Positions 5,966-38,530 of a stretch of DNA of 64,000 nucleotides are shown here, one piece after another. Position numbers and translations under genes: made by a program. The notes beneath the pieces were generated by a model. The model was given only the letters and a program-made list of their open reading frames with translations. It was not told where the DNA came from and made no database searches. This DNA comes from Clostridiales bacterium Firm_04 (GTDB lineage Bacteria > Bacillota > Clostridia > Oscillospirales > Ruminococcaceae): positions 1 to 64,000 of the forward strand of contig LVAJ01000023.1 of assembly GCA_001603005.1 (NCBI GenBank). Direction: 5' to 3'. The number at the start of each line of letters is the position of its first letter. Within the stretch, counting starts at the first letter, position 1.

Positions 5966-6062
5966 TCCCCGGCGGGGAGCCCCCGCTGGCAATTTCCTTC
6001 GGGAGCCGGTTTCGCGGACTGCCCCTGCATTCCAAGCACACGCCGCTAGACGCGGCTTCTGC
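5966..6062. repeat. Dispersed GC-rich repeat (same family as copies near 37.7 and 37.9 kb)
   Basis: The block beginning GGCGGGGAGCCCCCGC, then TTCCTTCGGGAGCCGG and ending ACACGCCGCT..ACGCGGCTTCT matches, with substitutions, 37673-37762 and 37929-38017. No coding function: reading frames crossing this stretch (5720-6160) lack ribosome sites and run through the repeats. Apart from repeats, 5680-6190 shows no gene. Confidence 0.65.
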
Positions 6063-11822: not shown

Positions 11823-12545
11823 TCAGTTCAGGTTTCCGGTATGGAACATCAGCACGGAAAGCGCCGTCAGCGGCGCCGTTTCGCAGCGCAGGATCCGCTT
11901 GCCGAGCCAGACCGGCTGCACGCCGCCTGCCTGCAGCATTTCGATCTCGGCGGGATCAAATCCGCCCTCGCTGCCGATGCAGAGTCCGTAGCTTTTCGCA
12001 TCGCTGCGCACCGCAGAAAAGGAGATGCCGCCCTCGCCCTCGTAGAGCACGAGCGGAACTTCGAGATCCTGCATGCGGGATGCTGCCATTTCCAGTGTAT
12101 GCAGCGGAGCGACTGCCGGAATGATGCCTCTGCCGGACTGCTGCGCTGCTGCCTGCGCGATCTTCTGCAGGCGCGGGAGCTTGCGCTGGAAATCGCCTGC
12201 GGACGGGCGCGAGATGCAGCGCCGCGTCAGGACGGGGACGATCTCCGTGACGCCGAGCTCGACGGATTTCTGAATGATCTGCTCCAGCTTATCCGATTTC
12301 GGGAGCGCCTGAAACAGCGTCACCGAAACGGTCGGCTCTGCACAGCAGGGTGCCGAGGACAGGATCCGGAGCACGGCAGCTTCCTGCGTGATCTCCGCGA
12401 TCTCGCATTCGTAGTCGATGCCGCACGCGCAGATCGTCAGGCGTTCCTGCGGTTTCATCCGCAGCGCATATCCGATATGCCGCAGATGCTCACCCGTCAG
12501 GACGGGCTGCTCCGGCGAAAATGAATCATCAAAAAATTTCGGCAT
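11823..12545 (-). CDS. rsmE: 16S rRNA (uracil1498-N3)-methyltransferase RsmE
   Basis: A 240-residue SPOUT methyltransferase of the ribosomal decoding region. Recognisable parts are the N-terminal PUA-like start (HLRHIGYALRMKPQERL), the signature ELGVTEIVPVLTRRCISR, AAAQQSGRGIIPAV, and the knot motif LCIGSEGGFDPAEIEM followed by LGKRILRCETAPLTAL. It is the first gene of a four-gene operon on the minus strand. Its promoter is the gene-proximal copy of a promoter-bearing repeat (12576-12604). Confidence 0.95.
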   Translation of the reverse strand: MPKFFDDSFSPEQPVLTGEHLRHIGYALRMKPQERLTICACGIDYECEIAEITQEAAVLRILSSAPCCAEPTVSVTLFQALPKSDKLEQIIQKSVELGVTEIVPVLTRRCISRPSAGDFQRKLPRLQKIAQAAAQQSGRGIIPAVAPLHTLEMAASRMQDLEVPLVLYEGEGGISFSAVRSDAKSYGLCIGSEGGFDPAEIEMLQAGGVQPVWLGKRILRCETAPLTALSVLMFHTGNLN

Positions 12546-12575: not shown

Positions 12576-12604
12576 ATTATATCATATTTTGCGGAAAAGT
12601 GCAA
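12576..12604 (-). promoter_or_regulatory. Promoter of rsmE inside a dispersed repeat
   Basis: Minus strand -35 TTGCAC (12599-12604), -10 TATAAT (12576-12581), spacer 17. The surrounding sequence matches the promoter repeats at 37.6-38.1 kb. Confidence 0.8.
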
Positions 12605-12632
12605 TGGGTGCGCGAAAAAATAATTGTGCAGC
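12577..12632 (-). repeat. 56-bp promoter-bearing direct repeat, copy 1
   Basis: Identical to 12674-12729 except for one base (G versus A). Begins at the -10 of the rsmE promoter. Confidence 0.9.
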
Positions 12633-12673
12633 AGAGCCATATGGGTGCCATAATGGCGGCGCGCACTGCCCGC

Positions 12674-12729
12674 TTATATCATATTTTGCGGAAAAGTGCA
12701 ATAGGTGCGCGAAAAAATAATTGTGCAGC
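12674..12729 (-). repeat. 56-bp promoter-bearing direct repeat, copy 2
   Basis: Carries -35 TTGCAC (12696-12701) and TATAAG (12673-12678) with a 17-base spacer. It is followed in the transcription sense by GCGGGCAGTGC, as is the copy at 37806-37845. Confidence 0.9.
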
Positions 12730-12751
12730 CGCGCGGAAAATATTGCACAGC

Positions 12752-36957: not shown

Positions 36958-37164
36958 GGAAGCGTTTTCGCCCTGTTGCCCAAACGGAGCGTCACACTTT
37001 TGTACACCTGACCGATTTTTGCAAAAACACTTGACTTCCCCCCATGCGCTATAATGAGGGTGAGAGGGAATCTCCGGTCTGCGATTGCGGGATCAGCAGA
37101 CCGTAGGCATATGCAGGATCTTCCTGCATCCGAATCGGGTGTCTTTTGAGAAAGGATGTTTTTT

Positions 37165-37557
37165 ATGAAGAAGAAAATGCTTGCAGCACTGGCTGCAACG
37201 GTCATGCTCTGCGGGGTGCTTTCCGCGCCTGCATCGGCTGCCGAGTACAAAAAGGGTGACATCAATATGGACGGTGAGATCACGGCTGCGGACGCACAGC
37301 TTGCTCTGATCGACTATACAGAGTATCTGGTCGCCGGAATGGATCATATTCTGACAGAGGAGCAGCTGGAACTTGGGAATATTGACGGTAAGTTTAAGGA
37401 AACAACTGATGAAATGGGAACCAGAATTTCTGGGGTAACTGCACGTGAGGCGCAGGCGATTCTGTATTACTATACAGCTTGTGTTGCGGATTCCGGCTTA
37501 AAGGATGTTGAGATCGTCGATTATTTGGCGGAGTATTATCCGAATTACGTTCAGTAA
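37165..37557 (+). CDS. Small secreted dockerin-like protein A
   Basis: A 130-residue protein consisting of a signal peptide (MKKKMLAALAATVMLCGVL..ASA) and a dockerin-like module. The first calcium loop and helix are clear: GDINMDGEITAADAQLALID; the second half (VTAREAQAILYYYTA) keeps the helix but its loop is degenerate and separated by a longer spacer. There is no catalytic or binding domain. ATG 37165 is chosen because AAAGGA lies 8 bases upstream. It is about 50% identical by eye to the protein at 38150, so the two are a local duplication. Being dockerin-like it could occupy cohesins, but that is inference. Confidence 0.82.
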   Translation: MKKKMLAALAATVMLCGVLSAPASAAEYKKGDINMDGEITAADAQLALIDYTEYLVAGMDHILTEEQLELGNIDGKFKETTDEMGTRISGVTAREAQAILYYYTACVADSGLKDVEIVDYLAEYYPNYVQ

Positions 37558-37640: not shown

Positions 37641-38090
37641 CCCCATTGCAATTTTATCTGCTATATGTTATAAGCGGGGAGCCCCCGCGGGCATTTCCCT
37701 TCGGGAGCCGGCAGCGTGGCTCTCCCAACATTTACAGTACACGCCGCTGAACGCGGCTTCTCATTTGCTGCTGCTCCCAAAAACCACTTTTTTCATACAC
37801 CCCCATTGCACTTTCCTGCATAATATGATATAAGCGGGCAGTGCCCGCCGCCGCGATAACTCCCATGAATCGAAACTGTAAAAATTATGTTTGCTCTCCC
37901 ATTGCACTTTCGTGCATAATATGATATAAGCGGGGAGCCCCCGCGGGCATTTCCCTCCGGGAGCCGGCAGCGTAGCTCTCCCAACATTTACAGTACACGC
38001 CGCTGATCGCGGCTTCTCATTTGCTGCTGCTCCCAAAAACCACTTTTTTCATATACTCCCATTGCACTTTCCTGCATAATATGATATAAT
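37641..38090 (+). repeat. Array of four promoter-bearing repeats
   Basis: Four copies of a TTGCA(C/A)-N17-TATAA(G/T) unit start at 37646, 37806, 37902 and 38062. Copies 1 and 3 are each followed by the same GC-rich block of about 125 bases (37671-37795 and 37927-38051), giving a 160-bp repeat; copy 2 has a shorter GC palindrome; copy 4 leads straight into the second dockerin-like gene. Only copy 4 has TATAAT; the other three have TATAAG. The region contains no supported gene. Confidence 0.88.
38062..38090 (+). promoter_or_regulatory. Promoter of dockerin-like gene B
   Basis: -35 TTGCAC (38062-38067), -10 TATAAT (38085-38090), spacer 17. It is the last copy of the repeat array. Confidence 0.82.
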
Positions 38091-38149
38091 AAAAGCAGAA
38101 TAGACTATGTTGACAGTCGTGCAGGTGAATTGGAGAAAGGATGATTCAG

Positions 38150-38530
38150 ATGAAACGGAAAATGCTTGCTGCAATTGCGGCTTCGGCAGTGCTGTTCAGT
38201 GCGATGACGGCTGCTGCATCGGCTGCTGCATACAAAAAAGGCGACGTCGATATGGACGGGAAGATCACCGCTGCGGATGCGCAGCTTGCCCTGATCGACT
38301 ATACGGAGTATCTGGTCGCCGGAAATAACCATGCGCTCTCGAAGGAGCAGCTTGCACTCGCGGACGTTTGCAGAACGACAATGGCGAAGGAATCCGGAAC
38401 GCCGGAGATCACCGTACACGATGCGCATGCGATCCTTGTGTATTATACGGAGAGCGTTGCGGATGATGCTGTCAGGGAACAGGATATCGCTGCATATCTG
38501 ACAGCGCATTTTTCGTGGTATGTCCCGTAA
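38150..38530 (+). CDS. Small secreted dockerin-like protein B
   Basis: A 126-residue paralogue of the protein at 37165: signal peptide (MKRKMLAAIAASAVLF..ASA), first loop GDVDMDGKITAADAQLALID, and a diverged second helix VHDAHAILVYYTESVAD. The second calcium loop is again degenerate. ATG 38150 is preferred over 38141 because AGAAAGGA lies 8 bases upstream, the same spacing as in gene A. Transcription probably starts from the last promoter of the repeat array. Function as for gene A. Confidence 0.82.
   Translation: MKRKMLAAIAASAVLFSAMTAAASAAAYKKGDVDMDGKITAADAQLALIDYTEYLVAGNNHALSKEQLALADVCRTTMAKESGTPEITVHDAHAILVYYTESVADDAVREQDIAAYLTAHFSWYVP

Follow-up and report, generated by a model that had tools for sequence, protein, structure and literature searches.

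Four copies of a promoter-like unit occupy the forward strand at positions 37646, 37806, 37902 and 38062 of the window, the whole 64,000-nt stretch that was analysed (contig C18 of a Ruminococcus-group genome assembled to 3.54 Mb in 53 contigs, 88.6% complete), upstream of a gene encoding 129 amino acids. Each unit reads TTGCA(A/C), 17 nt and TATAA(G/T), with TGn preceding TATAA. The initial annotation had described these four units, a repeated block after two of them and a further inverted pair upstream of rsmE, and all were found in place: the block spans 37642–37833 and 37898–38089 (192 nt, 93% identical), and the inverted units lie on the reverse strand at 12577–12604 and 12674–12701. The core pattern, TTGCACTTT-N7-AATATGnTATAA, matched the window 5 times at up to 3 mismatches, against a mean of 0.00 and a maximum of 0 in 100 dinucleotide shuffles; a looser pattern was needed to pick up the more diverged copy at 37646. 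In both places the sequence can be parsed into a displaced promoter copy followed by one or more cassettes, each with a hairpin head, a body and a closing promoter copy:

37646..37673, forward strand: displaced promoter copy (TTGCAA...TGTTATAA), read from the sequence; directly followed by the G that opens the first cassette head
37674..37833, forward strand: cassette 1, long type, 160 nt; hairpin head 37674–37688, body, promoter copy 37806–37833
37834..37929, forward strand: cassette 2, short type, 96 nt; hairpin head 37834–37848, body, promoter copy 37902–37929
37930..38089, forward strand: cassette 3, long type, 160 nt; hairpin head 37930–37944, body, promoter copy 38062–38089
38141..38530, forward strand: downstream gene, 129 aa, weakly dockerin-like (Dockerin_1 E 0.0032, 18.1 bits, cut-off 22.9)
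12674..12701, reverse strand: displaced promoter copy upstream of rsmE, TATAA then G
12577..12673, reverse strand: rsmE cassette, 97 nt; imperfect head 12659–12673, body, promoter copy 12577–12604, T at 12576
11823..12545, reverse strand: downstream gene with an RNA methyltransferase domain (rsmE-like), from a domain scan

In the forward array, the T at 38090 directly follows cassette 3 and completes TATAAT. The copy at 37646..37673 differs from the three later copies, which resemble each other closely, and is probably the resident promoter. A likeness of the downstream protein to dockerins, as first annotated, was recovered, albeit as a weak one that scores below the cut-off. The neighbouring gene at 37156–37557 (forward strand) scored slightly better and still just below the cut-off of 22.9 (Dockerin_1 E 0.00015, 22.3 bits), and the array stands between two similar, weakly dockerin-like genes in tandem. 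Elsewhere in the window, at 5972–5986 on the forward strand, the head GCGGGGAGCCCCCGC opens a longer repeat with the long-cassette type of body and no adjoining promoter.

Upstream of rsmE, the segments 12577–12637 and 12674–12734 (61 nt) are 95% identical. The two promoter copies are therefore the same local sequence, and what the locus by itself shows is duplication of a native promoter around an insert and no delivery of a foreign one. DNA folding of three cassettes gave a head hairpin in two and none in the rsmE cassette (z-scores −1.45, −3.29 and −0.53). No inverted terminal repeats of at least 12 nt were found in the two window arrays, shorter ones being judged by eye. In two sister species, a different short tandem repeat was seen upstream of the rsmE promoter (L185, L186; G043, G021).

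Promoter-core copies across the genome

Searching the whole genome with the core at up to one mismatch returned 86 copies, while the same pattern read backwards had 0 matches on both strands; together with the window shuffles, this led us to reject chance look-alikes. Core matches occurred in 25 of 41 genomes, comprising 24 of 25 from the genus (this one included) and 1 of 16 others from the order. According to a simple gene caller, 81 of the 86 copies lie between genes and share the strand of the next gene, four are intergenic and face a gene in the opposite direction, and one falls within an ORF, in a genome with a coding fraction of 0.81. Copies equally frequent inside genes, or randomly oriented towards them, would have spoken against the initial annotation; as far as sequence can tell, they are neither.

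All 86 copies fall inside the stretches taken for analysis, which at up to 2 mismatches contained 101 copies, grouped as 25 arrays (20 of two copies, three of three and two of four) and 44 singles. The sixth base of the −10 hexamer was T in 25/25 gene-nearest array copies and G in 32/32 other array copies, these classes being set by position in the array, independent of the hairpin described below; among single copies it was T in 43/44. A contrast between a gene-nearest TATAAT and more distant TATAAG copies, first noted at two loci, thus extends to all 25 arrays, and among array copies TATAAT is confined to the gene-nearest one.

Of 25 downstream ORFs, 20 were scanned and had no evident common function. 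They encode an RNA methyltransferase (rsmE), methionyl-tRNA synthetase, Tex, an M50 peptidase, a DnaB/Toprim protein, adenine deaminase, GH43, an SNF2 helicase, DegV, a response regulator, an MFS transporter, GNAT, a phosphotransferase and others. The presence of core genes in this set fits an insertion that leaves expression intact. Near-identical promoter-bearing sequence in front of unlike gene families is what defines mobile promoters, and this pattern is seen here.

The hairpin head and the sixth base of the −10 hexamer

A GC-rich hairpin begins directly after displaced promoter copies, in exact register. Across 226 TGnTATAA sites, perfect hairpins with a 6-bp stem and 3-nt loop numbered 32 at offset 0 (30 GC-rich heads and 2 unrelated) and 0–3 at each of 40 other offsets; at relatives' loci chosen by protein, 3 of 134 sites had a hairpin at offset 0, with 3 in total over the other offsets. 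The 32 displaced copies in the arrays are followed by a perfect 6-pair stem in 25 cases, by 5 pairs in 4 and by fewer in 3, compared with a single 6-pair stem, by chance, among the 44 single copies. Given this register, the hairpin's first base doubles as the sixth −10 base of a displaced copy, and the T/G contrast follows from the insertion point. We therefore do not retain the original reading of that contrast as selection on the proximal copy: the sixth base is G with GCGGG heads and C with the CCGGG...CCCGG heads of sister species, which also have GCCGGC...GCCGGC heads. The register stays constant though the heads differ between species.

Stem pair 6 was G-C in 54, C-G in 43, T-A in 11 and unpaired in 5 of 113 junctions, a count in which the other stem pairs and the AG of the loop are imposed by the search pattern. 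Each cassette is closed by a second promoter copy whose TATAA precedes either the host's T or a further cassette; after this copy we counted T in 83, another GCGG head in 21 and something else in 9 of the 113 junctions. Cassette periods are mostly 93–97 nt, with others of 102–104, about 134 and 158–162 nt. Like miniature inverted-repeat transposable elements (MITEs), the units are short (about 93–162 nt), dispersed over many loci and apparently non-coding.

A related hairpin also heads repeats away from promoters. At four loci of this genome (L213, L214, L215 and L231), hairpin-headed repeats directly follow a CCAAAGGGAT..ATCCCTTTGG hairpin, and at L231 the 34 nt ending at that hairpin recur after the insert; the head may thus serve other insertion sites too. 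A third type of hairpin-headed repeat follows the word AAATC(A/G)GAATTT at L082, L220, L221, L223 and L224 of the same genome, several of them near contig ends, and the word recurs about 90–110 nt downstream. The head pattern had no match in 8 of 30 genus genomes.

Filled and empty promoters in the genus

The spread of a promoter-bearing unit, as originally proposed, is supported by two lines of comparison: near-identical cassettes at different loci and mostly empty orthologous promoters in relatives. In named genomes, the comparison of cassettes began at the head and stopped nine bases short of the end, a span that includes the −35 and spacer. At four different loci of one genome (L108, L125, L149 and L166) they are 95–99% identical, the L129 and L149 cassettes are 92% identical, and the pairs L158/L164, L139/L155 and L099/L142, again at different loci, are 99–100% identical. 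The resident promoters at these loci differ at 3 to 9 of 28 positions. We dropped the idea that the native promoter is merely duplicated, with nothing delivered, given such near-identical cassettes at different loci.

Orthologous upstream regions were compared for four genes, the filled or empty states at metG, tex and the M50 gene being read by eye. For rsmE, 20 of 29 genomes with the gene were chosen and 18 regions obtained, and a single promoter of the same general type stands in 16 of them; this genome is filled and G021 has a related insert. At metG (16 of 24 genomes inspected; one locus cut and unreadable), 10 of 15 readable regions have a single promoter and 5 are filled (this genome, G017 and G042, along with G003 and G023, in which the first copy is decayed). 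Single promoters likewise account for 10 of 12 readable regions at tex (16 of 24 genomes inspected, 4 cut), with this genome and G023 filled, and for 10 of 12 at the M50 gene (14 of 28 inspected, 2 cut), with this genome and G004 filled; one single M50 promoter, in G003, is without TG. In some relatives the filled promoters carry other heads.

Among the matches listed, this junction occurs mostly in assemblies of Ruminococcus flavefaciens and other Oscillospiraceae or Ruminococcus, many of them from the rumen; the set from named genomes comprises 80 of 94 stretches with 89 junctions, 88 of them usable. Taken together, these sequence comparisons support the view that the units are dispersed, promoter-bearing and mobile.

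Three stretches (L117, L154 and L161) represent one locus in three genomes with different cassettes, where one genome's proximal promoter is similar to another's displaced promoter. The same promoter and hairpin architecture was also seen at L156 and L163, in a 1.49-Mb contig titled Alistipes (JAMPAJ010000001.1), where either mislabelling or spread beyond the group is possible. In this genome (88.6% complete), searches for transposases of the Y1, IS110 and IS256 types found none; the Y1 (RAYT-type) transposases of REP/REPIN systems were present in 3 of 30 genus genomes. A phage origin was rejected, with the junction pattern in 0 viral-contig stretches. The open literature that we searched held no published description of these repeats in Ruminococcus.

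Proposed insertion at the extended −10 and its alternatives

We consider it likely that short non-coding mobile cassettes insert at the extended −10 of ordinary promoters and that the gene-side promoter is rebuilt in the process. A cassette made up of hairpin, body and −35 region would enter after base five (TGnTATAA|T), joining its head between bases five and six of the hexamer, so that the old promoter would become TATAAG or TATAAC and would probably be weakened by the changed sixth base. The cassette would supply a −35 and spacer, and its end together with the host's T would form a correctly spaced TGnTATAAT promoter beside the gene. If the new promoter is active and the insertion harmless, expression of the gene would continue under an exchanged upstream control region, and insertion at core genes such as metG would be accounted for. 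Arrays may then grow by tandem duplication or repeat insertion, plus conversion between neighbouring copies.

The bases that end a cassette were compared with the target. A second promoter copy was present at 113 junctions, 73 of them leftmost, with no cassette further upstream; the two copies differ at 4 or more of 28 positions in 54 of these 73 and at 3 or fewer in 19. In 47 of the 54 divergent pairs, from genomes with at least two and with same-genome pairs as the control, the −6 base agrees in 35 (14.3 expected, P = 2e-4) and differs in 12, and the −9 base agrees in 37 (30.6 expected, P = 0.008). Positions tested further upstream had no significant excess agreement in these 47 pairs, and positions −1 to −5, −7 and −8 hardly vary because the search pattern fixes them. 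A second set comprised 46 junctions with CCGGG heads in five relatives; 43 of them have a second promoter, 33 are leftmost, and of these 18 are divergent and 17 usable. It gave agreement at −6 in 10/17 (4.8 expected, P = 0.017) and at −9 in 15/17 (13.0 expected, P = 0.12), the excess at −9 not being repeated. The agreement at −6 and −9 implies that the last six, perhaps nine, bases (nTATAA, perhaps RTGnTATAA) would be either duplicated from the target or required to match it. Related cassettes at different loci have the same −6 base in 47 of 54 pairs, which are not independent, and this constancy leans towards matching over duplication. Since a cassette lineage keeps the same −6 base and its targets have that base too, our guess is a recombination or 3′-end pairing step that needs matched bases, as opposed to a transposase with a fixed stagger.

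For a second class of insertions, a short target duplication is insufficient on its own. The whole promoter is alike in 19/73 and 15/33 leftmost cassettes of the two sets, rsmE among them, and this class needs a further step. The long cassettes of the window, L032 and L071 are 95–97% alike, and the promoter spacers in each agree with the locus where they stand. Either a recombination tract spanned the promoter or neighbouring copies were later converted. At L057, L084, L227 and the rsmE locus of G021, the insert lies in the spacer rather than the −10; since the proximal promoter is complete, we take a deletion within the displaced copy, after insertion, to be the probable cause. One alternative makes the long tract the general rule: a circular or linear cassette would integrate by recombination, homologous or site-specific, across the full promoter sequence, a variable tract giving both classes. 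It would account for short and whole-promoter duplications ending at the same base, for the locus-specific spacers of those long cassettes and for the constant −6 base. The non-independence of the cassette pairs weakens the last point, and conversion after insertion would yield the same picture. We regard this alternative as a real possibility, if on the doubtful side.

Growth within each locus alone, by slippage of a hairpin-holding promoter region and gene conversion with nothing moving between loci, seems unlikely. The class of almost identical promoter copies, the locus-specific variants shared within multi-copy arrays (L043, L044) and the 61 nt of its own upstream region repeated at rsmE all agree with it; the 92–100% identical cassettes at loci whose resident promoters differ, the recurrence of one head and register at dozens of genes, and orthologous promoters filled independently with different heads do not. 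Local tandem duplication very probably accounts for the growth of arrays, not for their origin. Less probable by far is a regulatory device, in which the hairpin or palindrome at the −10 acts as an operator or 5′ RNA structure controlling a regulon of tandem promoters. The strict hairpin position and a compensatory change at stem pair 6 would suit such a role, yet the 20 scanned downstream proteins have no evident common function, most readable orthologous promoters are without the hairpin, and it sits on the displaced promoter instead of the gene-nearest one. The arrays also had no Rfam match at gathering scores: the only such matches in ten sources were three tRNAs, and weak ones in an array fell far below the cut-off. 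That the copies are ordinary housekeeping promoters, alike through a strict genus consensus, is scarcely credible and is refuted for the arrays: single TTGCA...TGnTATAAT promoters are indeed widespread, as the 44 singles illustrate, and orthologous promoters share the general form, which holds for resident promoters, but the hairpin in register, the fixed periods and the identical bodies are left unaccounted for.

Several known elements resemble the proposed cassettes in part. REP and REPIN sequences, which are linked to Y1 transposases (PMC8049555), are small GC-rich hairpins with many intergenic copies, and elements that integrate into tRNA genes restore the host feature, rendering insertion harmless. 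Mobile promoters were reportedly inferred by Matus-Garcia (2012) and van Passel (2014) from sequence repeated upstream of genes, with neither an insertion site nor a junction structure defined; on that account, the cassettes here are set apart by a junction structure and a proposed insertion site. Mobile promoters are short repeats that stand before different genes and have a known or presumed promoter role (PMC8049555), a description that the cassettes share. The cassettes also share the small GC-rich hairpins and many intergenic copies of REP/REPIN, but are directional promoter units in a genome without a Y1 match.

Correia repeat enclosed elements of Neisseria, as outlined in PMC2649163 and PMC10969869, are short, non-coding and often upstream of genes; their gene-near end holds a −35 and a partial −10 that the insertion site can complete (the Black promoter), the target is duplicated and tandem duplications occur. 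On that outline, the cassettes are alike in being short non-coding repeats near genes, with a promoter that would be completed at the target and tandem duplication. Correia elements, however, are bounded by inverted terminal repeats and inserted for the most part at TA sites, and a promoter arises from only some of their copies, with 18 potential Black promoters in one gonococcal genome (PMC2649163, PMC10969869). The cassettes would instead use an existing extended −10 (TGnTATAA|T), nearly every one ends in a promoter, and their left end is a GC hairpin and their right end a −35 and spacer. Correia-type terminal repeats and TA target were not found in them, a separation that follows the literature description of those elements. 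Fusion promoters of insertion sequences take a −35 from the element and a −10 from the target (PMC9330008); in that account such hybrids are occasional products near a −10, whereas here the element is non-coding and insertion inside the −10 with repair would be the rule. IStrons, too, render insertion harmless by restoring a host feature (PMC4227781); for the cassettes, compared with IStrons and tRNA-gene elements, the restored feature would be the promoter −10. Mobile promoter-bearing repeats are thus known, and the use of an existing promoter −10 as the insertion site appears to be the new part.

A stronger formulation, which we advance tentatively and rate a little short of an even chance, is that non-coding mobile elements throughout the genus use the extended −10 as an attachment site, split the hexamer at the same base, spoil the old promoter and rebuild a new one, with the cassette's last bases having to match the target. 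By analogy, such an element would be the promoter counterpart of those that integrate into, and restore, tRNA genes. An insertion that leaves an intact-looking promoter copy on the gene side could let cassettes spread with little harm. If this is true, exchanging the promoters of core genes would cost little, as the cassette enters at a regulatory box and the geometry of insertion mends the damage, and mobile promoters would gain a concrete anatomy. Such promoter takeover would be directly testable, as a single genus offers the same genes with filled and with empty promoters.
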